From Deltaproteobacteria bacterium (lineage in GTDB: Bacteria; Myxococcota; B64-G9): a DNA stretch of 41,278 nt. The stretch lies in NCBI GenBank assembly GCA_030591445.1, contig JAUVBB010000006.1:1-41278 (forward strand), in the 5' to 3' direction. The stretch's first letter is position 1. Each line of letters begins with the position of its first letter. The position numbers and the translations under genes were made by a program. Below, in pieces: positions 10,447 to 41,156 of this stretch. The notes beneath the pieces are model-generated. The model worked only from the letters and a program-made list of their open reading frames with translations. It was not told the origin of the DNA and did no database searches.

Positions 10447-12078
10447 TTAAGATGATTCTTTTTTATTGCCCAATGCCGCTTTTAGCTTTTCGGCCAGGAT
10501 TTCTATCCGGTAGGGTTTTTGCAGGAAGCCGGCCAGTCCCTTGCCGGCGAAACGGGCCATCAAATCATGTTCGTTGTAGCCACTGGTAAGCAAGACCCGT
10601 ACATCTTCTCGAATTCTTTGCAAACGCCGATAGCAAGTCTCGCCATCCATGTGCGGCATGGTCAAGTCTAACAACACCAGATCGAACTGGGTCGGACGTT
10701 CTGTGTACAAGGCCAAAGCTTCCGCGCCGTCACCAGCAAGGACCACATTGCATCCCAGCGACTCAAGCATGCTTCCGGCCACCGCGCGAACCATCTCCTC
10801 ATCGTCAACCAAGAGGATGGTTTGGTCGAAATCGGCCAGGGCTGGTTTACGCACCGAGACAGAACGCAACTCACCTGCTTGCGCGCTGACCGGAAACAGT
10901 ACCCGGAAAGTAGTGCCTTTTCCTGGTTCACTGTAAATTTTGATGGCACCTTTGTGCCCGCGCACAATACCGAGAACCGCGGCCAATCCCAGGCCACGAC
11001 CGGCAAATTTGGTGGAAAAAAACGGGTCAAAAACCCGTTTCTGGGTCTCCCGATCCATGCCGACGCCGGTGTCACCCACATGCAGAAAAACGTACTGGCC
11101 TTCGGCCAACTCGTCGTCGAGGTAAGTCTCGCGCAGATAGTCAGCATCACAATCCATGACCCCGGTATGAATCGAAATGGTCCCGCTTTGTTCGCCAACG
11201 GCATCTGAAGCGTTGGTGATCAGGTTCATCACAACTTGCCGCACTTGGGCGGCATCGGCGGTAATGGCTGGCATGGGATGAGCCAATTCGATATTCATCA
11301 CCGCCCTTTTTGAGATGGACACTTTCAACAAATGCACCATCTCCTCTACCAAGGCGTTAATATCCAATCTCTCGATCTTGAGGGGACCTTTGCCGGCATA
11401 GGCCAACATCTGGCCGACCAAATCAGTGGCACATTCGGCCGAAATCACGATGCCTTCGACTCTTTCGCGGGCGGGCGATTCAGGCGCCATGTCATGCAAG
11501 GCCAAATCGGCATTGCCCAAGACGCCCACCAGCAGGTTGTTGAAATCGTGCGCGATACCACCAGCTAGTACACCCAGGCTCTCCAGTTTTTGGGCTTGTT
11601 GTATCTTGGCTTCCAGGTCTACCCGTTCCCGTTCTACCCGCTTCTGCTCGGTGACATCGAAAAACATAGACTGGATTGCCACATCACCATCGTAGGTGCA
11701 GGGAGCCCCAACCGCCACCACATCAAGAACCTTCCCGTCCAGTCGAATGAATTTTTCGTCTGCGGGCCCACCGGATCTTTGTTCACCATACATCAAGGCT
11801 ATCTGCTTGAGGGCAACTTCTCTCGAATCTGGGTGAATAAATGGCAACACCTGCTTGCCCAGTAATTCCTCCTGGCAAGAAGCGCCGATGGCATCCACCC
11901 CCGCCTTGTTTGCATAACGAATAATTCCAGCGCTATGGATGATGACCGAGAAAGGCGCATTGTCAGTCATAGCGAGGTAGCGCTGCTTGATTTCCCGCAA
12001 GTCAACCAGTTCGGCTTCGAGTTGCGCTATCTTCTTCTGGAGCAACGCGAGCTGATTTTCGGATTCGACCGAAGCCAC
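10447..12078 (-). CDS. hybrid sensor histidine kinase (coiled coil-PAS-HisKA-HATPase-REC)
   Basis: The protein has 543 residues. An N-terminal coiled coil (5-35) is followed by a PAS domain (about 36-145, ending FFDVTEQKRVE). The HisKA box contains LAGGIAHDFNN with phospho-acceptor H177. The HATPase domain has N-box N289 (NLITNASDAV), G1 GDTGVGMD and the GRGLGLAAV lid. The C-terminal receiver has acidic residues VDDEE, phospho-acceptor D471 (LLDLTMP) and K521 (LQKPY). No membrane segment is present, so it senses a cytoplasmic cue through PAS, perhaps a redox or small-molecule signal. The start is a GTG behind GGGAGG. It is divergent from tldD; no partner output regulator is adjacent. All catalytic residues are intact. 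Confidence 0.93.
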   Translation of the reverse strand: MASVESENQLALLQKKIAQLEAELVDLREIKQRYLAMTDNAPFSVIIHSAGIIRYANKAGVDAIGASCQEELLGKQVLPFIHPDSREVALKQIALMYGEQRSGGPADEKFIRLDGKVLDVVAVGAPCTYDGDVAIQSMFFDVTEQKRVERERVDLEAKIQQAQKLESLGVLAGGIAHDFNNLLVGVLGNADLALHDMAPESPARERVEGIVISAECATDLVGQMLAYAGKGPLKIERLDINALVEEMVHLLKVSISKRAVMNIELAHPMPAITADAAQVRQVVMNLITNASDAVGEQSGTISIHTGVMDCDADYLRETYLDDELAEGQYVFLHVGDTGVGMDRETQKRVFDPFFSTKFAGRGLGLAAVLGIVRGHKGAIKIYSEPGKGTTFRVLFPVSAQAGELRSVSVRKPALADFDQTILLVDDEEMVRAVAGSMLESLGCNVVLAGDGAEALALYTERPTQFDLVLLDLTMPHMDGETCYRRLQRIREDVRVLLTSGYNEHDLMARFAGKGLAGFLQKPYRIEILAEKLKAALGNKKESS

Positions 12079-21741: not shown

Positions 21742-21821
21742 GCGCAAAACCCTCCGTATTATTTCGGTATCTGAGAATAATTGTAGTATTTTTAGCGGCG
21801 CAAAGAAACTTTTTTACTCAA

Positions 21822-22556
21822 TCAACCACGGTAGCAGGTCAGGTGGCCATCTGAGTAAATCACTTGAAAGCGCGCCGACAAATACGAACGCAAGCAATCG
21901 GCAATGCTGAATACTACTACCGGTCCCGGCGTGGATTCCAAGTCCCGGCTAAGATTTCGGTAAAATTGGACACCCCGACCCTCGGGCCTAACCGGGCGAT
22001 AGAGGTAAACAAAGTTCATTCCCTTGCCCGAGGATTCCATCACATCGGCAACTTGCCATTGGACACGGTCTTGGTCGATTCCCAACCACTCTTGCAAGTG
22101 CTTACCGGCCTCTACCATTTGATGGGAGATTTCGACTTGCACACAGCGTTGGTGAGGATAGAGCTTCTGCAGCAACAATCCCTGTAAACCATTGCCGGCA
22201 CCAAAATCGCCGGACACTGTCTCGGGCTGAATATAGGGGGCCGCTTTTAGAATCGGAGAGATGCCACCGGCATGACACCAATAGCCCCCGGTCTCATCAA
22301 CACGCTGGCGTTCGGCCACGGTATAGGGAGCTTCATATCCATGTAAATGGCAGTATAAATTCAGAAAAGTCTCTTCTAGACGATCGCCGTTATCCCCATT
22401 TGCCGACTGCAGGAAGGCATCTTTGAGTTTTTCGTACTGAGGAAACAAACCAAATGGATCCGGAGGGGGCGGCAAGCCGGCAAACAAATTCATTAGCTTT
22501 GCCAGTCGATCTCGTTCCGCCGGATCGCGCTCATCACCGGCCAACAATTCTACCAA
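21822..22556 (-). CDS. putative SAM-dependent methyltransferase
   Basis: The protein has 244 residues. The middle carries a Rossmann-type motif I (SGDFGAGNGLQGLLLQKLYP), an acidic loop (VQVEISHQMV) and a motif like VQWQVADVME. These are typical of class I methyltransferases, although the usual GxGxG reads GAGNG. The N-terminal 90 residues are helical and the substrate is not recognisable. The start is uncertain: TTG at 22556 or ATG at 22493, neither with a clear ribosome site. It lies 17 nt after the HEAT lipoprotein gene and 80 nt before the PilZ-Hsp70 gene, so the three probably form an operon read right to left. Confidence 0.7.
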   Translation of the reverse strand: MVELLAGDERDPAERDRLAKLMNLFAGLPPPPDPFGLFPQYEKLKDAFLQSANGDNGDRLEETFLNLYCHLHGYEAPYTVAERQRVDETGGYWCHAGGISPILKAAPYIQPETVSGDFGAGNGLQGLLLQKLYPHQRCVQVEISHQMVEAGKHLQEWLGIDQDRVQWQVADVMESSGKGMNFVYLYRPVRPEGRGVQFYRNLSRDLESTPGPVVVFSIADCLRSYLSARFQVIYSDGHLTCYRG

Positions 22557-22573
22557 TCTTTGGGTATTTATGG

Positions 22574-23722
22574 TCAGGGTGCCGTCTTTTCTTGCCAGTT
22601 GGCAATCACGAATCCCTGGTTGCAGGGGCGCAACTCGAATTTTACCGTGATTTTGCCCTCTGCTTGCTTGCCCTGCCAGGAATTCTTGTCATCTTTCACT
22701 GCTTCGAAGCTCCACGGAGAGCCAGCAAGGGTTCCCGCAGCCAACATTTTTGGCAATAGATCAGAAAAAGCAACCGTTCGGAAGGAAAAAGCGTGAGTCA
22801 GTTCCTCGTATGCCAGAACCGCTTCCGCGTCTTTTTTCTCCTCGCTAGCTTTAGAGAAGGCCTGCGCACGAGTCCCAAGATAAGAAGATAACTTTTCCTT
22901 GCTGACTCCACAGGGTCGAATCACCTGTTGCTTGTCTGAACCACCAAGAGCCAGGGCCAACTTGCCCGCCGCATCTGGGTCAAGCATGTCAAACCCCTCC
23001 CCATCGGCAACCCATTTTTCTCTCTGTTTTTCAAAGACAAAGGCCATCATTTTGGGGGCAGTTTTCTCGGTATTGCCCAGCTGCCAAACAATGGCGGCCC
23101 GCCGATCCTCACGCTCCAACTCGGCGGCAATACCAAATGAAGTGCCTTTCATTAGCTCGGCTAAAACGTCGCGCAGGGCAAATTTTTGCTGCGCCAGTCC
23201 TTTTCGCCGATCTTTTTCAACTTTCTTTTTAGCTTTCTCTGGCTTGGGAGCAACCAGCTTTGCCAAACCCGCTTTGGCGGCATCTTGAACCTCGGCATCC
23301 TGATCGCGCAAACGTTTCTTGAACTCCTCGGGCACGCCGCTGGCCTTGGCATCGATTTTGGCCAAAGACTTCAGAATTTCTGCCCTGATATTCGCCACTT
23401 GCTCCACTGCGATTTGCCGCAGTAGCCAAGGAATCATTTCTCGCGCCGTCTCTGCCATCATGCCCAGGGTGACCACGATGCCTCGCCTCAGGGTCGGATC
23501 TTTCCCCCTAAGTCCTCTTTTCATATAAGGTATCGCCGGTTTCCCAATACGAGACAGAGTTGTTTGGGCGTGCTCACGAACCGTCCAATCATCGTGCCTA
23601 AGCACATTGACCCACTCGCTGACGAGCTTGCCCTCAAATTCGGGCTCGCTGGCGCATCCTGGCGCTAATGTCAACAAAGCTACAAGCAAGAACAGAATGA
23701 TAGCTGGATTCATTGGTCTCAT
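22574..23722 (-). CDS. HEAT-repeat lipoprotein
   Basis: The protein has 382 residues from the ATG at 23722, which has AGGAGG 7 nt upstream and gives a clear lipoprotein leader (MNPAIILFLLVALLTLAPGC). The frame runs 47 codons further upstream but without a ribosome site or leader. Residues about 30-165 contain HEAT-like helices (WTVREHAQTTLSRIGKPAI; LRRGIVVTLGMMAE; IRAEILKSLAKID). A Lys-rich segment (APKPEKAKKKVEKDRRK) and a C-terminal domain of about 190 residues follow. It is probably a surface or periplasmic scaffold. First gene of the leftward operon with the methyltransferase and PilZ-Hsp70 genes, and divergent from the ECF sigma gene. Confidence 0.8.
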   Translation of the reverse strand: MRPMNPAIILFLLVALLTLAPGCASEPEFEGKLVSEWVNVLRHDDWTVREHAQTTLSRIGKPAIPYMKRGLRGKDPTLRRGIVVTLGMMAETAREMIPWLLRQIAVEQVANIRAEILKSLAKIDAKASGVPEEFKKRLRDQDAEVQDAAKAGLAKLVAPKPEKAKKKVEKDRRKGLAQQKFALRDVLAELMKGTSFGIAAELEREDRRAAIVWQLGNTEKTAPKMMAFVFEKQREKWVADGEGFDMLDPDAAGKLALALGGSDKQQVIRPCGVSKEKLSSYLGTRAQAFSKASEEKKDAEAVLAYEELTHAFSFRTVAFSDLLPKMLAAGTLAGSPWSFEAVKDDKNSWQGKQAEGKITVKFELRPCNQGFVIANWQEKTAP

Positions 23723-23861
23723 GATTTGCCTCCTATTTGGCTGGCCCATAGTAGGAACACCCAGCTCGGAGATCAACCGAATTCTGCCCCTCTCACCACA
23801 AATACCTACATTTACACACATTTTTCTCTGATTATCTTTTTTGGCCCGAAACTCCTTCCTC

Positions 23862-23902
23862 AAGGTACTATAATCTTAGATAATACCTTCGTGAAAGGTA
23901 TT
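23862..23902 (+). promoter_or_regulatory. promoter and dyad before the ECF sigma gene
   Basis: A perfect -10 hexamer TATAAT (23869-23874) has only a poor -35. AAGGTA half-sites flank it: AAGGTA (23862-23867), then the dyad AATACCTT-N5-AAGGTATT (23882-23902). The three equally oriented or inverted half-sites around the -10 suggest a repressor or autoregulator site. Confidence 0.45.
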
Positions 23903-28237: not shown

Positions 28238-28325
28238 ACCCGGGATTACAATCAAAGACACTTGCGGTTTTCGACGCCAATTGGTAGCTTGATCGTTGCT
28301 GGCCGTAGCAAGGGGGGTATGGAAG

Positions 28326-30494
28326 ATGGGCGAATCTAAAGATCTGGTAAGAAAAGTCCGCGAACTCGAACGGGAAAACGAGCGTCTGGCCGAGCGTTCC
28401 GAAGATCTCATGCTGCTGGGGCTGGTCTCTGAGTTGATACAGGGGTTGGAAAGCGAAGCCGACATCTTGGAATCGACTTTGAAGCGGGTGTCCATCATCA
28501 AAACGCTGCCTGTTGCCGCCTGCGGCTTCGTGCGCGACGAAGAAATACAACTGTTGCACTCGTTCGACTCCGGGGTGGAAGAAACTTCTTTTAGCAAAGA
28601 GATTCATCCGCCCGATGTCATTTTCGACAAGCTCACCGCGGGCGCATGTGTGTCGCTCAAAGAGGACGCAGCCACAGTGGCCGGTCATTTCTGGCCTTCG
28701 GCTTATCAGTTCACTGCCATATTAACCCTGCCGTTTGAAACTCGTAAGATACGTCGCGGCTTGTTTTTATTTGGGGACACCCATGCATCGTACCGTCTGC
28801 CCGCGTTATCTTTGACCTTGCAACGTTTGGTAGAGATGGTCACTTCTCGACTCGACAACCTGGCCTTGCTCGACGAATTAAAAGAAGTGAATATTTCTCA
28901 GGATCAAAAAGTTGCCCGGCGCACCCGAGAACTGACCGACTTGAATCGGGAGCTGCTGGCTGAAATCGCCAACCGGAAAAGAGCAGAAGAAGCCGAACAC
29001 CTTTGCGCCCACATCTTCAAGAACGCGGAATGGGGCGTAGCGGCTTGCAGTATCGCCGGCAGGCAAATCATGCAAGCCAACCCGGCTTTGGTCAAAATGC
29101 TGGGCCTGGCCGAGGCCGATATCACCGGGACCCTACTCCTACAACTTTGCGCGGAGCCACAGCGCGCCGAGCTAGAGCGGCATCTGCTCACCGCGGAACA
29201 AACCGGTCAGTGTTCTTTGCAGACGCAGCTGAAGCGCAAAGACAATAGTACTTTCCCGGCCCTGATGTCGGTGACCTTAATCGAAGAAGAAGATTTTCCC
29301 CGCCCGTTTTTCGCGGTCAACATACAAGATCTAAGCGAACGGGTATTTCTGGAAGACCAGCTCTTGCAGGCCCAAAAAATGGAATCTATTGGCAGGCTGG
29401 CCGGCGGGGTTGCCCATGACTTTAACAATTTTCTCTCGGGCATTATCGGTTACAGTGATCTCATCTTGCTAGAATTACCGCCGGGACACGCCATGAGAAA
29501 GAAGGCTGAGTTCATTCTTGATTCTGCCCAAAAAGCAGCCGCGCTCACCCGCCAACTCCTGGCCTTCAGTCGCAAGCAAGTCATGCGCATGGAACCCTTG
29601 CAACTAGACAGCATCGTCGAGCATATGGCCGGCATGCTCAGCCGGATCATCGGCGAAGATATCGAGTTGGTCATTGATACCGACACCCCCACGGCAGCCA
29701 TCCTGGCCGACAAAGGTCAGCTGGAACAAATCCTGATGAACCTGGCGGTAAACGCGCGTGATGCCATGCCCGATGGTGGGCAACTCCAGATCGCAATCGA
29801 TAATGTCAAAGGCAAAACGGAACCCGCGCAAACTGAAATCACGGATTCTTCCGGATCTTTTGTCGAACTACGCGTCTCCGACACCGGCACTGGAATGAGT
29901 CGGGAAGTACAAGAAAAGGCACTTGAACCCTTCTTTACCACCAAGCGCCAAGAAGAAGGAACGGGTCTCGGCCTGTCCACTGTCTATGGCATCGTGCAAC
30001 AACATAAGGCACAGATCGATTTCACCAGTGAACCCGGCCACGGAACGACCTTCCGCATCTATTTCCCCGTCACCAACGGCTCTGCCCAGATACCCGAGGC
30101 ACCCGACCGGGTTGCGCTACCCCGCGGCAACGAATCAATCTTGCTGGTAGATGACAGCCTGCTCTTGCGCCGCTTAGCCGCCGATATCCTGTCCCCGCTT
30201 GGATACCAGGTCTCCGAGGCCGCTTCGGGTCAAGAAGCATTAGAATCTCTGGCGGTCACCGACCGGGCCGTCGACTTGATTCTCTCTGATGTAATCATGC
30301 CCGGGCTAAAAGGCAGTCAACTGGTCGAAGCCTTGCGATCCCGCCAACCCGAGATCTCTATCGTCCTCATGTCCGGTTATCCCAAGGATCACGAATCCAT
30401 CCAGCAAGCCCGGGCCTTGGTGTCCGATTATATTCAAAAACCGCTTACGCCGAAGGAATTGGCCGAAACGGTACGCAAGGTGCTAGACGCTTAA
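28326..30494 (+). CDS. hybrid sensor histidine kinase (GAF-like-PAS-HisKA-HATPase-REC)
   Basis: The protein has 722 residues from the ATG at 28326, preferred over a TTG 30 nt earlier. Domains are: coiled coil (4-28), GAF-like sensor (about 30-185), second coiled coil (190-225), PAS (about 226-340), HisKA with LAGGVAHDFNN (H364), HATPase (N476 in NLAVNARDAM; SDTGTGM; GTGLGLSTV), and a C-terminal receiver with VDDS, D655 (LSDVIMP) and K705 (IQKPL). There is no membrane segment. It follows the propeller lipoprotein by 88 nt and may belong to the same envelope-sensing locus. Its stop overlaps that of the convergent redoxin gene. All key residues are intact. Confidence 0.93.
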   Translation: MGESKDLVRKVRELERENERLAERSEDLMLLGLVSELIQGLESEADILESTLKRVSIIKTLPVAACGFVRDEEIQLLHSFDSGVEETSFSKEIHPPDVIFDKLTAGACVSLKEDAATVAGHFWPSAYQFTAILTLPFETRKIRRGLFLFGDTHASYRLPALSLTLQRLVEMVTSRLDNLALLDELKEVNISQDQKVARRTRELTDLNRELLAEIANRKRAEEAEHLCAHIFKNAEWGVAACSIAGRQIMQANPALVKMLGLAEADITGTLLLQLCAEPQRAELERHLLTAEQTGQCSLQTQLKRKDNSTFPALMSVTLIEEEDFPRPFFAVNIQDLSERVFLEDQLLQAQKMESIGRLAGGVAHDFNNFLSGIIGYSDLILLELPPGHAMRKKAEFILDSAQKAAALTRQLLAFSRKQVMRMEPLQLDSIVEHMAGMLSRIIGEDIELVIDTDTPTAAILADKGQLEQILMNLAVNARDAMPDGGQLQIAIDNVKGKTEPAQTEITDSSGSFVELRVSDTGTGMSREVQEKALEPFFTTKRQEEGTGLGLSTVYGIVQQHKAQIDFTSEPGHGTTFRIYFPVTNGSAQIPEAPDRVALPRGNESILLVDDSLLLRRLAADILSPLGYQVSEAASGQEALESLAVTDRAVDLILSDVIMPGLKGSQLVEALRSRQPEISIVLMSGYPKDHESIQQARALVSDYIQKPLTPKELAETVRKVLDA

Positions 30495-31178: not shown

Positions 31179-31988
31179 ATGTGCAGGATGTTGGGAGCTA
31201 TTTGCAACGACGAAGATCTGCTTTCCTGCGCCATTGAGGAAGTCAAAGATTCTCTCCGCTGCGAAGATGGCGAGACCCACGACGGCATCGGCGTCGGGTT
31301 TTATAGTCAAGATGATGCCCTGCTAACCAAAAAACCCAGCGCCAAGGTTGCCGAAATTGATTTCGTCAGTCTGGTCGAGGGCATCGTATCCAATGTACTC
31401 ATGGTGCATATCCGCAAGGCCACGGTAGGGGTTTGGAAAGACATCAACACCCATCCCTTCCGGTTCCGCAAATGGCTTTTCGCCCACGTGGGCCACTTGC
31501 CGCAGTTGGAAAAAAACAAGGAGGCCCTTCTGGCTGATATGCCTCCTTTCCTGGCCCGCGATATCAAGGGTGATACCGACAGTGAGTTGGCCTTCCACGT
31601 CTTCCTAAACGTGATCTTCAAGCATGGCAAAATCAACGATCTCTCCATGGAGGTTGGCCTGCTCGACGAGTACTTGCGCGAAACCGTGGCGATCATCAAT
31701 CAACAGCACGAAGAAGCCAAACGCCCCGAGTTAGCCATACTGGTGACCAACGGCGAGGTCATGTCGGCGGCCAGCCAGGGAATCGCCATGCACTACTCCC
31801 TGCGCGAGGGCATCCTGGAATGCCCGCGCTGCGAAAAAAGTGACCAACAAAAGCACATTCACGGTCGATTCAAAGGCGTGATGGTAGGTGCCGCTATGTC
31901 AAATCCCGGTCATCAGTGGCGGGAAGTGGCCGACGGCAGCCTATTGCACATTTCGAAAGATTTGGAACTCAAAGTTCAGCAGTTGTAA
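31179..31988 (+). CDS. class II glutamine amidotransferase-like protein
   Basis: The protein has 269 residues. It starts MCRMLG, so removal of Met exposes the catalytic N-terminal Cys2 of Ntn-type (class II) amidotransferases. The pattern fits YafJ/EgtC-like stand-alone glutaminase domains: ETHDGIGVGFY, VLMVHIRKATVGVWKDINTHPF, WLFAHVGHL, DTDSELAFHVFL. A C-terminal segment with a CPRC pair is extra. The ATG has GGGAGG 6 nt upstream. No synthetase partner is adjacent. It heads a closely spaced run of seven genes. A link to ergothioneine (EgtC is of this class) is not supported by position. Confidence 0.85.
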   Translation: MCRMLGAICNDEDLLSCAIEEVKDSLRCEDGETHDGIGVGFYSQDDALLTKKPSAKVAEIDFVSLVEGIVSNVLMVHIRKATVGVWKDINTHPFRFRKWLFAHVGHLPQLEKNKEALLADMPPFLARDIKGDTDSELAFHVFLNVIFKHGKINDLSMEVGLLDEYLRETVAIINQQHEEAKRPELAILVTNGEVMSAASQGIAMHYSLREGILECPRCEKSDQQKHIHGRFKGVMVGAAMSNPGHQWREVADGSLLHISKDLELKVQQL

Positions 31989-32010: not shown

Positions 32011-33243
32011 ATGACCACACGCAAGGTGCTGGTCATCGACGACAGTCCAACGATTCACAAGGTCATTGCCCACACGCTAAAACCGCTTGGCTACGAAGTG
32101 GAATATGTGTTGGATGGCAAGCTGGGTCTCTCCAAAGCCAAGGAGAATCTTCCCGATCTGGTGTTGTTGGACTTCATGATGCCAGGCATGAACGGTTACC
32201 AAGTCAGCAAAGCCATGGGTCAAGATGAATCGCTCGCGGGCATCCCCATCGTCTTGATGTCGGCCAAGGGAGAGATGATTGGGGAGAAGTTGGTCAAGAC
32301 CATGGGCATCGTGGATTTCATCACCAAACCCTTCTCTCCCGACGCACTCGCCACCCTTACCCAGCACGTCCTGGAAAAGTACGGGCAAGGAAAATCCGAC
32401 CAGCCAGCCGAAGGGGAACCGCTCATGCCGGTTGGCGAGCGCGCACCCGAGGACGCCCCAACTTCGGCCGACCTCTCCGATCCACGTGGCCGGCCGGCCA
32501 TTCGAGGGAATCTGGGCATGATTCCAGCGGGCGAGCTGTTTCAACTGCTCAAATTCAAAGATCACACGGGCATTCTCCACCTGGCTCGCGGCCAAGCTCA
32601 TTTGGAGGTTTACATCCGCGAAGGCCTCATCACCTTCGCCTGGGCCCGGCGCATGGAAGAGGAATTCTTGCTGGGTCGGTTCCTGGTCGAATCAGACGCC
32701 ATTTCTGTCCATGATCTAGAGTTGTTCCTGCAGAGCCGCCGCGGCGGCAACAAACTCCTGGGCGAGCAACTCAGAAAATTGGGCCACGTCACCGCCGAGC
32801 AGCTCGGGGTCGCCCTCAAGCACCAGACCGAGGCGCTACTCTTTGAGGTATTGCGCTGGGGCGAGGGCGCCTTCGCATTCTATGTGACCGAAAATCCTCC
32901 CCCCGAGGCCCGGGAGGCAAATTTACGGCTCCCCATTGATTCCATCCTGATGGAGGGTTTTCGCCGGGTCGACGTGTGGGGCATGATTGAGAAAGAGATC
33001 CATGATTTCGACATGGTGTTGGCCCCCAGTCGTGACAGCACGGGAGTGAGAAAGCAAATCTCACTCAAGCCCGATGAAGAGCGCATTCTTTTATTGGTCA
33101 ATGGCCTTCGCAGCATCAAGGAAATCATTCAGACCAGCCGGAGGAGTTCGTTCGATGTGTGTAAAGTACTCTATCGTTTGCTGTCAAGCAGGTTTATCCG
33201 GAAACGTTCTTTGCAAAACACAACTTCGGTGGAGTCCGCGTGA
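32011..33243 (+). CDS. response regulator with DUF4388 (PATAN-type) output domains
   Basis: The protein has 410 residues from the ATG at 32011 with GAGGG 6 nt upstream. Residues 1-125 are a receiver (IDDSPT, phospho-acceptor D54 in LLDFMMPGM, K107 in ITKPF). After an acidic linker, residues about 163-215 form a DUF4388 domain (RGNLGMIPAGELFQLL...TGILHLARGQAHLEVYIREGLITFAW). A second related stretch follows (LGEQLRKLGHVTAEQLGVALKHQ...EVLRWGEGAFAFYV). DUF4388 proteins are frequent in myxobacteria and cyanobacteria, where they act in motility and chemosensory signalling. It lies 38 nt before the receptor-like gene and could receive phosphate from another kinase, because the local CheA-like protein looks inactive. 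Confidence 0.9.
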   Translation: MTTRKVLVIDDSPTIHKVIAHTLKPLGYEVEYVLDGKLGLSKAKENLPDLVLLDFMMPGMNGYQVSKAMGQDESLAGIPIVLMSAKGEMIGEKLVKTMGIVDFITKPFSPDALATLTQHVLEKYGQGKSDQPAEGEPLMPVGERAPEDAPTSADLSDPRGRPAIRGNLGMIPAGELFQLLKFKDHTGILHLARGQAHLEVYIREGLITFAWARRMEEEFLLGRFLVESDAISVHDLELFLQSRRGGNKLLGEQLRKLGHVTAEQLGVALKHQTEALLFEVLRWGEGAFAFYVTENPPPEAREANLRLPIDSILMEGFRRVDVWGMIEKEIHDFDMVLAPSRDSTGVRKQISLKPDEERILLLVNGLRSIKEIIQTSRRSSFDVCKVLYRLLSSRFIRKRSLQNTTSVESA

Positions 33244-33281
33244 AGATTTGCATTCATCCCGAACCATAAAGGAACTGGTCC

Positions 33282-35513
33282 ATGAACGAAGCTGACAACG
33301 TGGATCCTGAAAGCACACCGGCCACAGAGAGCCAGGCAGAATCAGGCTCGGCCGATTCCTTCCCATCCGCCGGGGAGAATAGAATCCGTCCCGGCCTCAA
33401 AGCCATGGCGGGAAAACTGTTTCTGGGTCTGCTGGCGGTGGGCCTTTTGCCCAAGCTGCTGGCGCTGTTGCTGATTTGGCCGCAGTTGGAACACTCTCGG
33501 CAGTCCCACGAAGATTGGACCAGGGCCTACCAGCAGCTCCAGACCCAGGTCACCGGCTTGGAGACAGCCCTCAAAACAAGTGGCGAGCAACAAGCGCAAT
33601 TTACGGCAGAAAAAGATCTGCTGCACAAAGAACGTTCCTGGTTGCGCGATCGCGAAAAACTGGTTGGTGGTCTCGCCGGTTTGGTCAGAGACAAGCCTGC
33701 CGAGGAAATAGCTGCCAGCGCGGAAATAAAAAAGCTGCTTAGGACTCCAGGTGGTTTTTTATTGGCGGCCTTGGTTGATCCCGCCGCCAAATCCATTGTT
33801 CGCAGCAAAACCAAAAAAGCCCCCGCAAACCACAAACAACTCATCGCCGAACTCAAGACAAAGTTCACCAGCATGAAATCCGCCACGGCGGTCAGCGCCG
33901 ACAGTTGGAGTTGGGTCAAATTGCCGGGAAGCAGTCTTTATGCCGCCTTTCGGGCACCCGCGTGGGAACAGAGCGCAAGCAAGAGCCAGCAAGATCTTGG
34001 CCCGGCCATAAGCGCGAAAGATGGGGCGCCAAACAACGCGACCAGCAATTCATTTTCCGACCGCCTAGTCCTGCTATCGATCGTATTGCCACTGTTGGTC
34101 TTGATTCTGTCCTTTATCGCCTTTTCTTTCTTTCGGAAAAAATTGCTCCACCCGCTGGCGCAAGTAACCGGCTTCGCTCGCCAGGTCTTGGATGATCCCA
34201 ACCGCACGAACCCTGACGACCTCGCGGCCGCAGGCCTGCTCGAAGACCTATCCGCATCCTTGGCGCGGCTAAACACGCGCATGCAGCGCATGCATGAGCA
34301 AGACAAAGCCACCATTGAGAGGCATTTCCAAATCAGCGACTTGCTTCAGGTATTGTCACGCACGGCCACCGGCGATCTAAGCGTTCGGGCAGAGACAAAA
34401 CACGGCGAGTGCGAGGAACTGGCACTGTCATTTAATCGTTTTCTGGATCAGCACGGCGAACGATTTCAAGCCTTGCACCAGGCCGGCCATCAGTTGCAGG
34501 CCGCCTCAAAACGGCTCCAGGTTCTGGCCCAAAAAACCGCTGGCGCTTTGCATGGCTCCGTTACCGAGAAACCTGCCGACTACAGTGTCCTGGGTGATTT
34601 TTTAGGCTCTGAAATCGATCAACTCTGTAATCAATCCATGGAAATGGCTGCCGGCTTTGAGCCCAATGCATTACCCAGTTGGACCGCCCATGATGGCGAA
34701 CAGATGTTGGCCAGCCTTGAAACCATTGAGGCGTCCCTTCTTTTACTTTCTCAGCGAACAAACCAACTACACAAGACCGCCGAACGCTTTTCCGCTTTGC
34801 ACCGCGACGCCGAGGTTTTTAGTACCAATCTGGCAATTGCCGCTGAGGCACGATCGCAAATCAGCCTCGATCGCCTGGTACACGAATCCCGTACTCTTTC
34901 CCAAACCATCACCCGATTGGCCCAATCCACCAGGGACGATCTGGAGCGAATCGGTCAATCCGGTGAGCAATTGCAAAACACAACGCATACGGCCGCCGAC
35001 AGCGGCAAACGTTGCTTGTCTGCTTTGACTACCTGGGAAGAACTTCGTCTCGGTCTCGAACAAAACCGTTCCGCTCTGACCAACCAAATGCAAAGAATAC
35101 GCCCGGCAACTCTTTCCTTGGGCAACGATGTTCGACGCTTGATTTCAGAATTAGACCAGGCGCGCCAAACGCTATTGAGCAAACAAGAGACGGTTCAGGC
35201 ATTGGGCGAATCGGCAAGCGCCATGTCCGCAAGCACGGAGGAAATCCTTCGCGTTTTGAAAATCGTCGGGGCCAGTGATTCCATCCCACCGGCGCCAACG
35301 CGAGGTCTGGCTGAAACCCAACTGGCACTTGAGAGTTCCTTGCGCAATCTCGTCGACCTGGCCAGCGATGATGGGATAGAAATTCTATCCGACGATGCCA
35401 GCGCGATTCTGGAACAAATCCGCCAGGAGGCAACCGAAGCCAAGGAACGGGTATTGGCTGCCGTGCAAAGGAAAAACCAGCGTCAGCATCCTCCGGCGGA
35501 GCCACGTGCATGA
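33282..35513 (+). CDS. degenerate chemoreceptor-like membrane protein (HAMP, coiled coil)
   Basis: The protein has 743 residues. A polar N-terminus of 40 residues leads to TM1 (about 45-66), a periplasmic coiled-coil/sensor region (68-260), TM2 (262-284), HAMP (285-337), a second HAMP-like segment (about 350-400) and then about 330 residues of heptad-rich helix. The layout is that of a methyl-accepting chemotaxis protein. However, the highly conserved tip QTNLLALNAAIEAARAGE is replaced by STNLAIAAEA (515-524), with several residues missing. The flanking methylation helices are poorly conserved. It overlaps the CheA-like gene by 4 nt. I infer a receptor-derived scaffold that pairs with that protein rather than a normal receptor. 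Confidence 0.8.
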   Translation: MNEADNVDPESTPATESQAESGSADSFPSAGENRIRPGLKAMAGKLFLGLLAVGLLPKLLALLLIWPQLEHSRQSHEDWTRAYQQLQTQVTGLETALKTSGEQQAQFTAEKDLLHKERSWLRDREKLVGGLAGLVRDKPAEEIAASAEIKKLLRTPGGFLLAALVDPAAKSIVRSKTKKAPANHKQLIAELKTKFTSMKSATAVSADSWSWVKLPGSSLYAAFRAPAWEQSASKSQQDLGPAISAKDGAPNNATSNSFSDRLVLLSIVLPLLVLILSFIAFSFFRKKLLHPLAQVTGFARQVLDDPNRTNPDDLAAAGLLEDLSASLARLNTRMQRMHEQDKATIERHFQISDLLQVLSRTATGDLSVRAETKHGECEELALSFNRFLDQHGERFQALHQAGHQLQAASKRLQVLAQKTAGALHGSVTEKPADYSVLGDFLGSEIDQLCNQSMEMAAGFEPNALPSWTAHDGEQMLASLETIEASLLLLSQRTNQLHKTAERFSALHRDAEVFSTNLAIAAEARSQISLDRLVHESRTLSQTITRLAQSTRDDLERIGQSGEQLQNTTHTAADSGKRCLSALTTWEELRLGLEQNRSALTNQMQRIRPATLSLGNDVRRLISELDQARQTLLSKQETVQALGESASAMSASTEEILRVLKIVGASDSIPPAPTRGLAETQLALESSLRNLVDLASDDGIEILSDDASAILEQIRQEATEAKERVLAAVQRKNQRQHPPAEPRA

Positions 35514-36922
35514 TGCCCACAACCGCCTGCGACACTCGCATTCTACAATCACTGACCGAGGAAATATCCCAAACTATTTCCTGGCTAGCCGAATCAGAAG
35601 CCACGCCCGCACAGAAGCAAATCCGCGATCGCATCCGCACTTTACGCGAGGCAGCCACTGTCGCGGGCCTAAGTTCAGTCGAAGCAGCCCTGGACAAACT
35701 CGACCGCAGCCTGGCGCTTTCCGGCGGTTTGGGGCCTGACGACACATCCCAAGACGCCAGCAATATCCTCGGTCAACTACTGGGCATGAACAGCCTGTTG
35801 GCGAGTTGCCTGGAAGAAAAAGAGCTGGGTTGTTTTCATTCCCTCAAAAACATAGAGCAAGGTTTGGATCAGATTTCCACGACTTTGTCTTCTTCCATGG
35901 CCCGTCTGGACAAAAAACGGCAACTGATCGACGACTGCTCCTCGGCCGCTTCTGTGCTTGAACGCGTTACCCTCCTGGCCCAACTCGAACGGGAAATCAG
36001 CGAAGAGTTCGAGCGTCAACAAAATTGCTGGCAGCAAACCACCAGCTGCCGTTCCCATCTCGATGACTCGATGAGCCACTTGGCCCGCGAGCTCGCCGGC
36101 CTGCATACCCTTTCTCTTTCGCCAGCCTTGGGCGGGATACAAAGTCATGTCCGCCGACTGAGCCGCAACGAAGGCAAACCGGTTTCCCTGATTCATCGCT
36201 GCGCGGAAATCAGACTTTCCGCCCACCAAACCGACCTGGTAACCCGCGTGTTGCTTTATCTGGTTGACCAGGCTCTGCTCGACGGAATCGAAGATCCGCA
36301 ACAGCGACGCAGCGCCGGTAAGACGATGGTGGGCAGCCTACGGATTACGGGCAAATCCTCGCAAGGCTTGACCGAACTGTACATGGAAGACGATGGTGAG
36401 AGTGGCCGCGACTCACTGCCGGTGCCCAACTCCATTCGCCAAGCCCTTTCCGGCTTGCGCGGTCGACTGGTTCAAATGCCGCCGCCAAGCAGCGGCCAAC
36501 TCACCATGCTGCAGTTTCCCACCTGGCGTAATTCTCTCGAGGTCATTCCAGCCGAAGCTGCCAGTGGCCCCGTCCTGATTCCGATCGACACTGTGGCCGA
36601 GGTTTATGGCGAAGGCCAAGTCCCGAATCATGAACTGCCTATGGTTTCAACCGCGCGGCGGGTCACCGATCAGGCCACCCATACCGGCGGGATTGTCTTT
36701 TCCGTGGGTCAGTGGCAAGGTCTGCTGGCGGCCACCAATATTAGTACGCCAGTGCGAATCATTTGTACCCCCGGCCAGGACGATGATCCGCCTTGGGTCA
36801 TCGGTTGGGGGGAGCACGCTACCGAAAAGCTACCGATTCTCCATCCATTGCTTTTTGCCGATATGAGCGAAGGTCATATTTGCTTGCACCCTACCACCTC
36901 CGGAATTTGGGGGGAATCATGA
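35510..36922 (+). CDS. degenerate CheA-like protein lacking phospho-His and N-box Asn
   Basis: The protein has 470 residues. Residues 10-70 align with the CheA P1 helix bundle, but HTLKGAA is here RTLREAA, so the phospho-accepting His is Arg43. A helical stretch (80-190) replaces P2. Residues 190-270 match P3 and the N-box region (VRRLSRNEGKPVSL; YLVDQALLDGIEDPQQRRSAGK), where the usual RNAxDHGIE has become DQALLDGIE, losing the Mg/ATP-binding Asn (Gln254). DDGESG is left of the G1 box and the GLGLS lid is gone. Residues about 340-455 look CheW-like. It should be unable to autophosphorylate, yet the architecture is kept. It is translationally coupled on both sides. No intact CheA, CheW, CheR or CheB is in the window. 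Confidence 0.82.
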   Translation: MMPTTACDTRILQSLTEEISQTISWLAESEATPAQKQIRDRIRTLREAATVAGLSSVEAALDKLDRSLALSGGLGPDDTSQDASNILGQLLGMNSLLASCLEEKELGCFHSLKNIEQGLDQISTTLSSSMARLDKKRQLIDDCSSAASVLERVTLLAQLEREISEEFERQQNCWQQTTSCRSHLDDSMSHLARELAGLHTLSLSPALGGIQSHVRRLSRNEGKPVSLIHRCAEIRLSAHQTDLVTRVLLYLVDQALLDGIEDPQQRRSAGKTMVGSLRITGKSSQGLTELYMEDDGESGRDSLPVPNSIRQALSGLRGRLVQMPPPSSGQLTMLQFPTWRNSLEVIPAEAASGPVLIPIDTVAEVYGEGQVPNHELPMVSTARRVTDQATHTGGIVFSVGQWQGLLAATNISTPVRIICTPGQDDDPPWVIGWGEHATEKLPILHPLLFADMSEGHICLHPTTSGIWGES

Positions 36923-39615
36923 TGGCTCGTATTCTGATTGTATTTTCCATTTCGTTTACCTTTGCTTCGGCAGCGCCGGCTTGGGGGCAACAAGACCGCG
37001 TCCAGTGGATGGCCACAAAACTGCTGCAGGGTGAAAATATCCGCAATTACGAGTTGGCCTTGGGTCAGTTCGTCAAGCAATCCGATCCCAGGGTTCTTCC
37101 TTTCCTGCTAAAAATGACGGAGCAAGATAGGGTCCAACTGCTGGCCGAGACGGCCGGTGTCTTATGGATATATGACAACAAGGAAGTTCGCCAACGCTTG
37201 GTGGCCCTGACCCAGAACCCTGAAGCGGAAGTCCGGGTGGAAGCCGCCAAGTCCTTGTGCTTGATGAAATACGACGCCTACCTGGATGTAATTCAAACGG
37301 CACTTTCCGACCAACAGACTGTCGTGCGGGTGCGGGCCTATCGGGCACTTTCAAAAATCAAAGGAGAACGCGCCCTGGCCATGCTGATGAAACAGCGGCC
37401 GGCCCGCAAAGTCATCGACCGAATTTGGAACGCCTATGCTTTGCATCAACTCCAAGAACAGCCAACCGCCCAACTTACTTTTCTGTCAGAGAAGCTGCTT
37501 TCTCTCCCCGCCGCCTACCACCGCATCACCAATGGAAATCCTAGCGAAAAGAACTTGGATCGAGCGGCCAAATTGGCAAGCCCGGGGGCTTCCATGCGAC
37601 AGCAGGCCGCTTTGGCTTTGTCCCGAATTGGCTCCGATCCAGCTCTGAAGCTACTGGTCCAGGCCACTGGCGACTTGGCACTTGCCGATGAGAGAAATGG
37701 ACCCAGAAATCTTCTCCGCCGGCACGGGCCGGCAGCTGCGCGCGCTCTGTCTGCCGGCCTGCAAGACGATTCGACCATGGTGCGTCTCGGCAGTGCCGAG
37801 ACCATAGCCCGCCTGCGTAGCCCTGGGGAGGCCGCGCAAAATACGCTCAAAAAAACACTGGGCGCCTGTTTGGCCGATGATGCCGGTCTGGTCAGACAGG
37901 CCTGCGCTCGGGCTATCGCCGCGCTTGATTTGTCATCACTGGCCGGGCGCTTGTTGCAAACCATGAAGCAACCAGACCCGGATACCCGCCGGGCAGCCGC
38001 CGAGGCCTTGGGCCATTTGGCACTAGCCAAAACGGCCCCTCCCCTCATCTTGCATTTGACGCACGAGACTCATCGCGGGGTTATTCGCAGTATCTATCGT
38101 TCTTTGGCCGCCATCGGCGCCCCTGACTCGGCAGCTCCCCTGTTCGCTCGTTTGCGTCAGTTGATCGGCAAGAACCATCAAGGCACCAAAATAAAAGAAG
38201 AAATCAACTTATGTGTCCGGGCCATCGGCGCCAGTGGAGAAGATGCAGCAGAAAAAACATTGCGTATGCTGCCGTCTGCCAATGACGAACAACGAAAAAT
38301 TTTCATGGAGATCCTGGCTCACTCTGGCAGTCGTCAAGGCATGGAATTTTTTCTGGACCGGCTCCGTGAGGCACCACCGGAAGCAGATGGTCCGGAAGTC
38401 CGTTTCTTTAGTTCCCTCGATGCCAATATGGCAGACGAATTGGAAAGATTGATCCAATCAGAAAGTGCCATGTGGATTCGCATCATTCTGGCCCGCGCGC
38501 TTTTTGGCATGGGCAAATCACATTATGCGCGCGGTATTTCCTGGGGATTGCGAAACGAAGATCCCTATCTGCAAAAACTGGCGGCCGCGGTATCCGTCGA
38601 TGTGGACATTCCCGGTATCGTAAACGAGCTTAGCAATCTCATGAATCAAGGGCCCCAGACCGCCTACTTCGCCGCCCGCGCCTTGCTGGCCTCCGCCGAC
38701 CCCGATGCTATCAGCAGTTTCCTTTCGAACATTTCCCGGACCAGTCTCCGCAACCGAAATCCCCTGCCATTGAAAGCCTTTTGGGACGCGGAGCCCTCGG
38801 CCGCCCATCCTTTCAGCAAAGAGGTGGACGGCGATCGCGTCTGGGTTGTCTTTGCCGACAACCGGCTAGGTCGACCCATGGACTTATTCCTCACCTGGTC
38901 TGTTGACGGCCGCATCTGGAAAGAGCCGATATATACCGGCTTGACCAGCTTTGCCAGCCTGGACGGCACAATCGCCCCGCCTACTTTTTCACTGAAGGTT
39001 CGCGAACGAGCCTTCACCATTGCCCTTACGCGCACCTTCGCCCGCTCGGTCAACGCCAAAGCGCCTCGATTCAAAAACGTGCAACGAGTACACCGATTCA
39101 AGCTGAAAGACTTCTTCAAAGATCGAGACTCAGATGGCCTGAATGATTTTGAAGAAGAATCGATATTTACCCGGGTGGGCTACGCAGACACAGATCGAGA
39201 CGGCCTCGATGACGGCAAAGACAAGAATCCGCTAGCCAAGCCCGCCGCCAAGCAACGCAATATTGATATTCTGCCCCTCTTGGCCTTCTCCTATGCCACC
39301 CTGGTCGCCGAAATATTACCCCGCGACCTGCGCCTGCTGGTGGTCATGCGCGTTGCCGACCAACGTCCCCCACCCGAACTACCCACCTTTCCCGGCTTGG
39401 TCTTGCACCTCGATGCCGAGCAGGTGCGCTCCCTTTGGAAATCCAGCGGTGGCGGCTTTCCCCGCATCCGCTTTCTCCCGCCCCGCATTACCCACAACGG
39501 CGAAAGGGCCATCCAAGCCTTCAGAGTTATCAGCGACTTTAATGATCAGGAAACTTTTCAAGTCTCTTTCGTGAAGAAAAATCAACAGTGGACCATCGAA
39601 GGTCTTCAACGCTAA
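36919..39615 (+). CDS. large exported HEAT-repeat protein with TSP3-type calcium motifs
   Basis: The protein has 898 residues, starting at the first of two tandem ATGs that overlap the CheA-like stop. A signal peptide (MMARILIVFSISFTFASAAPAWG) is followed by about 600 residues of HEAT/PBS-like helical repeats (DPRVLPFLLKMTEQD; AEVRVEAAKSLCLMKYD; DPDTRRAAAEALGHLALAK). A beta-rich part spans about 625-725. Near residue 735 there are two calcium-type motifs (DRDSDGLNDFEEE, DTDRDGLDDGKDKNP), then a C-terminal domain of about 120 residues. It is probably a periplasmic or surface scaffold. Its place in the receptor/CheA-like operon suggests a partner on the outer side of the membrane. Confidence 0.85.
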   Translation: MMARILIVFSISFTFASAAPAWGQQDRVQWMATKLLQGENIRNYELALGQFVKQSDPRVLPFLLKMTEQDRVQLLAETAGVLWIYDNKEVRQRLVALTQNPEAEVRVEAAKSLCLMKYDAYLDVIQTALSDQQTVVRVRAYRALSKIKGERALAMLMKQRPARKVIDRIWNAYALHQLQEQPTAQLTFLSEKLLSLPAAYHRITNGNPSEKNLDRAAKLASPGASMRQQAALALSRIGSDPALKLLVQATGDLALADERNGPRNLLRRHGPAAARALSAGLQDDSTMVRLGSAETIARLRSPGEAAQNTLKKTLGACLADDAGLVRQACARAIAALDLSSLAGRLLQTMKQPDPDTRRAAAEALGHLALAKTAPPLILHLTHETHRGVIRSIYRSLAAIGAPDSAAPLFARLRQLIGKNHQGTKIKEEINLCVRAIGASGEDAAEKTLRMLPSANDEQRKIFMEILAHSGSRQGMEFFLDRLREAPPEADGPEVRFFSSLDANMADELERLIQSESAMWIRIILARALFGMGKSHYARGISWGLRNEDPYLQKLAAAVSVDVDIPGIVNELSNLMNQGPQTAYFAARALLASADPDAISSFLSNISRTSLRNRNPLPLKAFWDAEPSAAHPFSKEVDGDRVWVVFADNRLGRPMDLFLTWSVDGRIWKEPIYTGLTSFASLDGTIAPPTFSLKVRERAFTIALTRTFARSVNAKAPRFKNVQRVHRFKLKDFFKDRDSDGLNDFEEESIFTRVGYADTDRDGLDDGKDKNPLAKPAAKQRNIDILPLLAFSYATLVAEILPRDLRLLVVMRVADQRPPPELPTFPGLVLHLDAEQVRSLWKSSGGGFPRIRFLPPRITHNGERAIQAFRVISDFNDQETFQVSFVKKNQQWTIEGLQR

Positions 39616-39633: not shown

Positions 39634-40572
39634 GTGGAAACACTGGCTATCGTCAACCCACGTAGTTCCAACGGCCGAACCGGCAAGCAATGGCAATCCA
39701 TTCGACGTGAGTTGCTAGGCATCGTCGGCCTCTGCCAGGAAGTCCATACCGAAGGCCGCGGACACGCCACCGAACTGGCCCGCCAAGCCCTGCTTTCCGG
39801 AGTGGATCGGGTGCTGTCCGTAGGCGGCGATGGCACCCACAATGAAATCGTCAACGGCTTCTTCGACGGCTCGGCACCCTGTAAACCAGACGCCATCTTG
39901 GGAATTGTGCCCTCCGGAACCGGCGGTGACTTCCGCCGCACTTTAGGAATAGCCTCCGGCAAGAAAACCTGGCAAGAAGTTTTGGCCCAAGAGCACAGTA
40001 TCCCGGTAGATGTCGGCATTCTACAATACCAAGCCGCCGACGGCAGCAGCCAAGAATCGAAATTCCTCAACATCACCAGCTTCGGTCTGGGCGGCCTGGT
40101 CGATCAAAAAGTAAATCAATCCACCAAAATCTTAGGCGGAAAAGTCTCCTTCATCATCGGCACGCTCAAAGCCCTGGCCCGCTACCGCAATCAGCCCATC
40201 CGCCTTCGGGTCTACCAAGCCGACGATTCTCTGGTGCTAGACCAATCCCTGGCCATTTCCAACGTAGCCGTTGCCAACGGCCAATATTTCGGCGGCGGCA
40301 TGTGGGTCGCCCCCAAAGCCAAAATCGACGACGGCCTGTTTGACGTCATCATCATGGGCGACCTGAGCAAGTCCGATGTAATCTTCAAAATGCAAAAGAT
40401 CTACAAAGGCAAACACCTGGAAATCCCCAAGGTCAGCTCGCTACGCGGCAGCCGCATCGAAGCCGACTCCGACCAAGAAGTCCTTATCGACATGGACGGC
40501 GAACAACCCGGCCGCCTCCCCCTCCGCATCGGCATCCTGCCCCAAGCCATCCGCTTGCAGGTAGCAAAATGA
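39634..40572 (+). CDS. diacylglycerol/lipid kinase family protein
   Basis: The protein has 312 residues, which fits the DagK/YegS/BmrU family. The nucleotide-binding motif GGDGT (64-68, in SVGGDGTHNEIVNG) is complete. The family segments AIVNPRSSNG at the N-terminus, GIVPSGTGGDFRR, SVANVAVANGQYFGGGM-like (AVANGQYFGGGMWVAPKA) and DDGLFDVIIM are present, and the C-terminal IDMDGEQPG is typical. It phosphorylates diacylglycerol, another lipid or a sphingoid-type base at the inner membrane face; the substrate cannot be read from sequence. The start is a GTG with GGGGG 9 nt upstream. It is 18 nt after the HEAT gene and overlaps the barrel gene by 4 nt. Confidence 0.92.
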   Translation: METLAIVNPRSSNGRTGKQWQSIRRELLGIVGLCQEVHTEGRGHATELARQALLSGVDRVLSVGGDGTHNEIVNGFFDGSAPCKPDAILGIVPSGTGGDFRRTLGIASGKKTWQEVLAQEHSIPVDVGILQYQAADGSSQESKFLNITSFGLGGLVDQKVNQSTKILGGKVSFIIGTLKALARYRNQPIRLRVYQADDSLVLDQSLAISNVAVANGQYFGGGMWVAPKAKIDDGLFDVIIMGDLSKSDVIFKMQKIYKGKHLEIPKVSSLRGSRIEADSDQEVLIDMDGEQPGRLPLRIGILPQAIRLQVAK

Positions 40573-41156
40573 GAGTTCTGCTTCTGGCCGTCATTTTAAT
40601 CTGCAGCTCTTTTACCGATCTCAATGAAGCCCTTGCTGGTCCCGAAGAACCCCAGCCGCAGTACCATAAATCTTTTCACCTGAAGCCCAAGATAGACACC
40701 AATACAGTAGTGTTTGGACTCGAGTACGTCCACCTGCTGAAAAATGACATAGCCTTGGTGGTAAACCCTCAGTACTACACATTACTCGGCAATAGCGTGA
40801 AAGTTTCAGAGATCCCAGATACGAACATCTATGAAGACTACGACGGAACCGGTTATGGGATATTGGTCGGCGGCCGCTATTTTCTCACTGAAAATACGAA
40901 CTTATCCGGTATTTACTTGCAAGTACACGGAAGCGTGGACCTCTTCGATGCCAAAATAAAATACAACGGAGATTGCATGGGCCTTTCCTTCCAAGTAGGG
41001 ACAGAAATCGGTGCCGTCTATCACAGCCCTTGGGGCATTGGCGCTTCCCTGGTTGCGGGCATTGGTTTGCGACACAACACCCTGTGCAGTGAAGCCATAG
41101 AATCTCTCACTACCGTAGATCCCCATTTTGGACTGAGCTTTGGTTACGGCTTCTAG
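40569..41156 (+). CDS. small outer-membrane beta-barrel-like protein
   Basis: The protein has 195 residues. A signal peptide (MRVLLLAVILICSSF, likely cleaved after EALA) is followed by alternating amphipathic strands with aromatic girdle residues (NTVVFGLEYVHLL; IALVVNPQYYTLLG; YGILVGGRYFLT; GIYLQVHGSVDLF). The C-terminus is FGLSFGYGF, ending in Phe as expected for insertion by the BAM complex. It resembles eight-stranded OmpW/OmpA-like or DUF3575-type barrels. Coupled to the lipid kinase gene, it is the last gene of the seven-gene run. Confidence 0.82.
   Translation: MRVLLLAVILICSSFTDLNEALAGPEEPQPQYHKSFHLKPKIDTNTVVFGLEYVHLLKNDIALVVNPQYYTLLGNSVKVSEIPDTNIYEDYDGTGYGILVGGRYFLTENTNLSGIYLQVHGSVDLFDAKIKYNGDCMGLSFQVGTEIGAVYHSPWGIGASLVAGIGLRHNTLCSEAIESLTTVDPHFGLSFGYGF

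Follow-up and report, generated by a model that had tools for sequence, protein, structure and literature searches.

Organization of the Locus

The window analyzed here is a stretch of 41,278 nucleotides (contig JAUVBB010000006.1 of assembly GCA_030591445.1) from an uncultured Myxococcota-type bacterium whose genome comprises 6.86 Mb in 610 contigs, and the genes of this contig were studied together with those of its relatives. On the plus strand of the window lies a six-gene cassette in the order amidotransferase-like protein, REC-DUF4388 response regulator, receptor, pseudo-CheA, exported HEAT/TSP3 protein, and YegS kinase. Its two central genes, a tipless receptor of 743 amino acids (33282-35513) resembling the methyl-accepting chemotaxis proteins (MCPs) and a pseudo-CheA of 470 amino acids (35510-36922), are the main subject of this work. 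Homologous loci were compared in a family of nine genomes from nine genera, the window's own included (members are given below as G002, G003, and so on), with 195 genomes of the phylum as the comparison set.

The stop codon of the receptor gene and the start codon of the pseudo-CheA gene overlap in an ATGA (35510-35513), an overlap that is also present in G005, G003, and G004, and a second ATGA (36919-36922) joins the pseudo-CheA stop to the start of the HEAT protein gene, which the initial annotation had not mentioned. The gene arrangement shows the receptor and the pseudo-CheA to be translationally coupled, with the exported HEAT/TSP3 protein coupled after them. Spacings of 22, 38, and 18 nucleotides link the amidotransferase-like gene (31179), the REC-DUF4388 gene, the receptor gene, and the YegS kinase gene (39634), and the cassette as a whole looks like one operon of six genes; a scan with the sigma-70 consensus found no promoter-like site.

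The Pseudo-CheA

A single-sequence Pfam search gave nothing significant for either the receptor or the pseudo-CheA, and no CheA domain in the latter, so that profile methods were required. Even as a single sequence, the pseudo-CheA is matched by the CheA models of NCBIfam (E 4e-6) and, in a phmmer search of the PDB, by Thermotoga CheA (4xiv, E 5e-5). The nine-member family profile matched CheA in the PDB at E 1.6e-18, the match spanning P3-P4 and continuing into P5, and its alignment with hhalign to 12 canonical Myxococcota CheAs covered residues 1-469 (probability 99.9, E 2.8e-32), with a probability of 0.3 for the column-reversed control. The AlphaFold model, with a predicted local distance difference test score (pLDDT) of 82 and a predicted template modeling score (pTM) of 0.71, shows helices resembling P1, a long hairpin of helices, a GHKL fold, and a P5 rich in beta strands, and its closest structural counterparts in the PDB are core units of CheA solved by crystallography and cryo-electron microscopy (6s1k at 7e-16, 8c5v, 3ja6, and 1b3q). 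The complete P1-P3-P4-P5 chain is therefore present: a P1-like helical domain (residues 9-75, 35534-35734), an extended P3-like helical hairpin (residues 76-195, 35735-36094; helices 76-144 and 149-195 in the model), a degenerate P4 of the GHKL fold that lacks both the lid and the G2 box (residues 204-340, 36119-36529), and a CheW-like P5 (residues 341-462, 36530-36895), which is beta-rich in the model and is reached by the PDB profile match.

The catalytic residues tell a different story from this domain chain. The initial annotation had described the gene at 35510 as keeping the CheA order while carrying Arg43 in place of the P1 histidine, Gln254 in place of the N-box Asn, and no ATP lid, and its coordinates and residues all check out. 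The phosphorylatable His of the HxxKG motif is replaced by R43 (codon 35636-35638), and the set of N-box Asn, G1 and G2 boxes, and ATP lid is incomplete, with Q254 (codon 36269-36271) at the Asn position. About 25 residues separate the G1 box remnant (D294-D295-G296; D294-D295 codons 36389-36394) from the last GHKL helix, compared with about 71 in an intact relative, and it is this deletion of about 46 residues after G1 that accounts for the absence of the lid and the G2 box. Both are absent in all nine family members, while the N-box Asn is kept only in G003; D295 is invariant, D294 is not, and His, N-box Asn, and lid occur together in no member. Alignment of the family shows the pseudo-CheA to be without the residues and the lid that CheA catalysis would need.

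The particular substitutions are less constant than the loss itself. A survey proposed with the initial annotation asked whether they are conserved in homologous operons, and they are not: position 43 is R, Q, L, or H, which also led to rejection of the idea that Arg is conserved there, and position 254 is Q, D, N (in G003), R, Y, or E. Loss of the two key residues thus holds for the window but is not universal, since the His is found in G002 and G004 and the Asn in G003. Homologs with a catalytic His and Asn at shifted positions, named in the initial annotation as grounds for refutation, were not seen: the His of G002 and G004 stands at the same position, in an HTLRE motif in place of HTLKG, and both proteins lack the N-box Asn, the adenine-contacting Asp, and the lid. 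No other conserved His was seen in the P1 domain of the family. In spite of the drift at position 43, helix alphaB of P1 (residues 35-53), which once bore the phospho-site, is conserved better than any other segment of the protein, with 57% mean pairwise identity versus 24-34% for P3, P4, and P5 and with R41, L45, R46, A48, and A52 invariant.

Among described proteins, the closest is CheA3 of Rhodobacter sphaeroides, whose CheA kinase domain lacks helices and ATP/Mg residues and which carries His-less Hpt domains (PMC10782961). Its kinase is dead, but CheA3 retains one Hpt that is active and acts together with a partner kinase, CheA4. In the window family, the sole P1 is without His in seven of nine members, no kinase gene belongs to the conserved cassette, and the dedicated partner kinase that a split CheA should have is not encoded beside the pseudo-CheA. 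In Pseudomonas ChpA, Hpt domains without phospho-His are likewise retained, although the kinase of this protein is active and several of its other Hpt domains are functional (PMC10782961). The large CheA survey in which these cases are treated found P1, P3, P4, and P5 in all CheA homologs and a single nonfunctional kinase, CheA3, still with an active Hpt, and it calls the role of His-less Hpt domains unsettled (PMC10782961).

CheA3, which is phosphorylated by CheA4 (PMC10782961), also provides a precedent for a hidden phosphotransfer, in which the P1-like domain would serve in some species as a relay intermediate and receive its phosphate in trans from a canonical CheA that the cell also contains. 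The His at the phospho-position of G002 and G004 fits this proposal, as does the presence of at least one other CheA match in every family genome. However, with that residue missing from the other seven members, a changed motif in the two that have it, and no substitute His in P1, such a relay is decidedly improbable.

The Receptor

The receptor consists of two transmembrane (TM) segments, a periplasmic Cache-like region, one or more HAMP domains, and a coiled-coil hairpin. TM1 (approximately residues 42-66, 33405-33479) is a hydrophobic segment and a helix in the model, and TM2 (approximately residues 262-284, 34065-34133) is followed by HAMP, the family profile matching the TM2-HAMP segment of the MCPs of its own genome at E 5e-8. 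The single-sequence Pfam search found no MCP domain, and the HAMP match was at E 0.96 in the window receptor and 3.6e-6 in the best relative. With the nine-member profile, hhalign aligned the receptor to MCPs of its own genome with probability 79 and E 1.5e-5, the tip in register, while the reversed control gave probability 4. In a Foldseek search of the model, McpB/McpC (2e-8) and HAMP-Tsr (4e-5) came ahead of generic coiled coils (Rad50, 2e-3); HMMER matches of the profile to the PDB were mostly designed or generic coiled coils and were not used as evidence.

The description of the gene at 33282 as a two-TM HAMP receptor with a short tip was borne out by these profile and fold matches. STNLAIAAEA lies at residues 514-523 and, together with the turn that AlphaFold places at residues 522-525 of the hairpin, occupies residues 514-525 (34821-34856). 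Here TNLAIAAEA replaces the canonical NAAIEAARAGExGxGFAVVA, and the distance between TN and RxL is seven residues shorter. The Pfam family MCPsignal was not found in the window receptor, and the 25 families most matched by the nine members do not include it. A TM sensor, a HAMP domain, and an antiparallel coiled-coil hairpin are thus present, whereas MCPsignal with its conserved tip is missing, and these comparisons show a receptor evidently derived from MCPs that is without the canonical kinase-control tip.

The region lost is the one through which canonical receptors such as Tsr form trimers of dimers and contact CheW and the P5 domain of CheA. The residues for both contacts are absent from the receptor alignment, and because these array-building residues are gone, the receptor and pseudo-CheA are unlikely to form a chemoreceptor array of the usual kind. 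The initial annotation had proposed an array-like scaffold that might signal by conformation or localization in place of phosphotransfer; the kinship to CheA and MCPs, the dead residues, and the intact regulator are supported, whereas the term array-like, with the tip lost, is not.

Flanking Proteins of the Cassette

The REC-DUF4388 regulator (32011-33243, ATG at 32011; Pfam Response_reg 3e-22, DUF4388 1e-23) combines the receiver set DD/D/T-S/K with a DUF4388 domain, which we take to be the PATAN domain, and is therefore of the REC-PATAN type. As the initial annotation stated, its phosphorylation residues are intact (D10, D11, D54, S84, and K106), and they are invariant in all eight orthologs, which are 65-72% identical. 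DUF4388 matches were also found in the cyanobacterium Synechococcus elongatus, and the window genome contains 25 DUF4388 domain matches and several PilT-family ATPases.

The first gene of the cassette (31179-31988) encodes a class II glutamine amidotransferase-like protein (GATase_4, E 2e-20; EgtC/YafJ-like). Alignment to the solved structures 3mdn and 1te5 shows that Cys2 is kept and that the oxyanion-hole Asn is replaced (FAHNG to FAHVG), this position being V, L, or A in all seven members, the window included, whose contig covers the N-terminal half. The pairing of N-terminal Cys with oxyanion Asn-Gly that defines class II glutamine amidotransferases is therefore incomplete in the 31179 gene product, and the amidotransferase-like proteins of G059, G031, and G025 are without the N-terminal Cys as well. 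The gene looks like a second pseudoenzyme, and its relatives adjoin REC-DUF4388 or REC in several families (31179-31988; L213:4412-5293; L210:3690-4517; L173:12765-13607).

Downstream of the pseudo-CheA, the exported HEAT-repeat protein (36919-39615; Pfam HEAT_2 3e-28) has a signal-peptide-like N-terminus and thrombospondin-3/EF-hand-like Ca-binding motifs, with a ladder of conserved Asp residues at about 735-771 in seven of seven members; it is possible that this protein is the periplasmic partner of the receptor. The last gene (39634-40572) encodes a lipid kinase of the YegS/DAGK family with an intact GGDGT motif (Pfam YegS_C 3e-36, DAGK_cat 3e-24) and is 54-58% identical in six relatives.

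Conservation and Divergence within the Family

In all nine family genomes, REC-DUF4388 is followed by the receptor and then by the pseudo-CheA to the extent that the contigs cover them, that of G004 ending inside the receptor, and the HEAT and YegS genes follow the pseudo-CheA in each of the seven loci long enough to show both. Full-length matches to the receptor and pseudo-CheA profiles were confined to the nine family genomes among the 195 of the phylum. Likewise, when about 85,000 species genomes were scanned within the limits of the peptide patterns of the regulator profile, full-length orthologs of the regulator occurred only in the window's family. A scan of close-relative contigs with the pseudo-CheA alone found no match because its sequence diverges too fast.

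Such divergence characterizes both central proteins, which are only about 20-37% identical between the window and its relatives and whose frames nevertheless stay open. Their mean column identities (40% for the receptor and 46% for the pseudo-CheA, versus 63-74% for the other cassette proteins) are the lowest of the cassette, and together with the drift of the catalytic residues they raise the question of whether the two genes are decaying and persist merely by lying between constrained genes. This is very unlikely. Without constraint, frames of 470 and 740 codons would not have survived unbroken, yet they are intact in nine genera at a mean pairwise identity of about 31% for the pseudo-CheA, and the domain architecture, the invariant non-catalytic residues, and the ATGA coupling have all been kept. 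The view of the initial annotation, that both genes are long, intact, coupled, and not decaying, is thus upheld.

Related Operons in Other Families

Outside the family, the best matches to the receptor profile are two MCPs, in G011 and G059, and both belong to operons with the same gene order and homologous parts: REC-DUF4388, MCP, and CheA-REC in G011, and amidotransferase, REC, MCP, and CheA-REC in G059, the latter thus also having an amidotransferase-like gene in front. Their MCPs have canonical tips, and in their CheAs the Hpt, HATPase_c, and CheW domains are intact, with the HTLKG, N-box (RNA.AHG), G1, and G2 motifs and a fused REC; the canonical tip, these motifs, and the fused REC are lost or absent in the window family. 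The comparison shows the window genes to be a derived and, as far as motifs can tell, catalytically dead form of a normal REC-DUF4388/MCP/CheA operon. We infer shared descent with the G011/G059-type operon from gene order, receptor, regulator, and amidotransferase. The derivation rests on these parts because the pseudo-CheA sequence by itself says little about ancestry: it is matched about equally by many canonical CheAs, so that the nearest one is not revealed. In the REC-DUF4388 tree, the outside relatives have no firm position.

With these operons, it becomes extremely unlikely that the two central proteins are unrelated to CheA and MCPs and show only a generic coiled-coil and GHKL-like resemblance. 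Such a view could appeal to the absence of any CheA or MCP domain in single-sequence Pfam searches and to the partly generic coiled-coil matches of the receptor in the PDB, but it is largely refuted by the CheA profile alignment and the related intact operons, and profile, fold, and synteny evidence all favor CheA and MCP. The profile searches suggested in the initial annotation therefore recovered both relations, and its core idea is strengthened by synteny with intact systems in other families.

Other relatives have lost more. In G025, an amidotransferase-like gene and a REC-DUF4388 whose DD has become EP accompany a short remnant of a HAMP receptor, and yicC- and gmk-like genes (identified by eye) come directly afterward, with no CheA there. 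In G016, a receiver with DP for DD precedes a short two-TM coiled-coil protein without Pfam match and then a lolA-like gene, and G031 has a receiver damaged likewise on a contig that ends in the receptor; the contigs of G017 and G044 also stop shortly past the regulator or receptor. The damaged REC-DUF4388 relatives are L213:5338-6813 and L210:2146-3645 (both EP), L211:9342-10580 (DP), and L212:8686-10062 (DS for DD), three of which adjoin receptor remnants. Ordered by their sequence features, these loci form an apparent series, of which the window family is the intermediate: an intact operon, then a dead CheA and a tipless receptor with an intact receiver, and finally a broken receiver without adjacent CheA.

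Next to the intact operons of G011 and G059, no HEAT or YegS gene was found. Their regular occurrence after the pseudo-CheA in the window family and the ATGA coupling of the HEAT gene would suit an envelope module without any link to motility, in which the receptor and pseudo-CheA would do no more than position the lipid kinase YegS and the HEAT/TSP3 protein, under regulation by REC-DUF4388. However, the most conserved protein of the cassette is the cytoplasmic regulator, making this a quite improbable role.

A Possible Non-Enzymatic Scaffold

By descent the two central proteins are CheA and MCP, and by the loss of the CheA catalytic residues and the MCP tip they fall outside both definitions; from their sequences, they would work most like a pseudokinase scaffold. 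With a likelihood just short of even, the receptor and pseudo-CheA work as a non-enzymatic membrane scaffold that docks the REC-PATAN regulator on alphaB of P1. In this proposal, the two proteins would form a membrane-bound scaffold in which the receiver domain of REC-DUF4388 would dock on the P1 remnant; binding would be tuned by the periplasmic/HAMP state of the receptor and would hold or release the PATAN output domain, so that the pseudo-CheA would govern the availability or place of the regulator. Docking is suggested because the receiver-contact face of P1 is conserved despite the dead chemistry and because the receiver is intact wherever the pseudo-CheA is present. Phosphorylation of the receiver, if any, would come from another kinase of the cell, which presumably acts on REC-DUF4388 since the receiver keeps its phosphorylation site.

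Precedents for the separate elements exist. In Synechocystis, PixE, PixG, and LsiR combine REC with PATAN/DUF4388-type output, and PixE is controlled by binding to the sensor PixD (PMC5812497); the proposed scaffold would resemble, without being, the holding of PixE by PixD, the differences being that PATAN is N-terminal in several of the cyanobacterial regulators and their sensors are photoreceptors, whereas the domain of the window protein is C-terminal and its companions are a receptor and a pseudo-CheA. One target of PATAN regulators is PilB, a motor of type IV pili (PMC10519157, PMC7690835). Because they bind PilB and several ATPases of the PilT family are encoded in the window genome, one may plausibly guess, by analogy, that the output target is a type IV pilus motor.

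Several points weigh against such a scaffold. The AlphaFold model of the receptor, in which the hairpin is seen, is of modest confidence (pLDDT 68, pTM 0.30), and part of the similarity between the receptor and MCPs is that of a generic coiled coil. The conservation of alphaB could be structural and have nothing to do with docking. The His43 of two of the nine members allows a residual phospho-accepting role there, and the invariant receiver residues mean that phosphorylation matters somewhere and that the system is not phosphorylation-free.

The main rival explanation reverses the flow of the signal: another kinase would phosphorylate the receiver, and the pseudo-CheA would read the phosphorylated receiver through its former output face and pass the signal inside-out, through the receptor, to the periplasmic HEAT/TSP3 protein. 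Caulobacter DivL, a dead histidine kinase kept to bind a response regulator, is the precedent (PMC4211667), although it is of HisKA type and keeps the fold of its ATP domain, whereas the pseudo-CheA is of CheA type, has its P1 as a separate domain, and stands together with a relative of chemoreceptors. The translational coupling of the exported HEAT protein agrees with such a direction, and so does the state of the receiver, intact in all eight family members with pseudo-CheA and broken in G025 and G016, which have no adjacent CheA. This correlation, however, comes from only two lineages with verified missing CheA, both far diverged, and reversed flow appears rather unlikely.

Taken broadly enough to cover both directions, the preferred interpretation has about an even chance of being correct: the cassette may encode a kinase-less chemosensory system in which a lineage-wide MCP-CheA scaffold docks an intact PATAN regulator on a His-less P1 and signals by binding and release (or reads the phosphorylated receiver and signals outward), representing one step of the reduction series. 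In the open-licence literature, no report was found of a fully non-catalytic, lineage-wide CheA-MCP pair. If true, a dead pair kept in nine genera, with intact cousins of the same order elsewhere, would mean that chemosensory parts are reusable as pure binding scaffolds, and the window family makes the role of His-less Hpt domains directly testable.

Other Genes in the Window

Two hybrid histidine kinase-receiver genes lie in the window (10447-12078 and 28296-30494). No match to their kinase parts was seen beside the cassette in the relatives, and the one at 28296, considered as the cognate kinase, was dropped because it is not conserved there. The YegS gene is overlapped through an ATGA by an open reading frame (40569-41156) for a small, exported, beta-rich-looking protein without Pfam match, for which no match was found near the cassette in relatives. 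On the minus strand, an Hsp70-like protein and a HEAT protein are encoded at 19573-23863, and homologs of these are also located just upstream of the cassette in G001 (L037:402-4055). Finally, a single frame of 1145 amino acids (3654-7091) joins a molybdopterin oxidoreductase to a class V aminotransferase domain, which is an unusual fusion.

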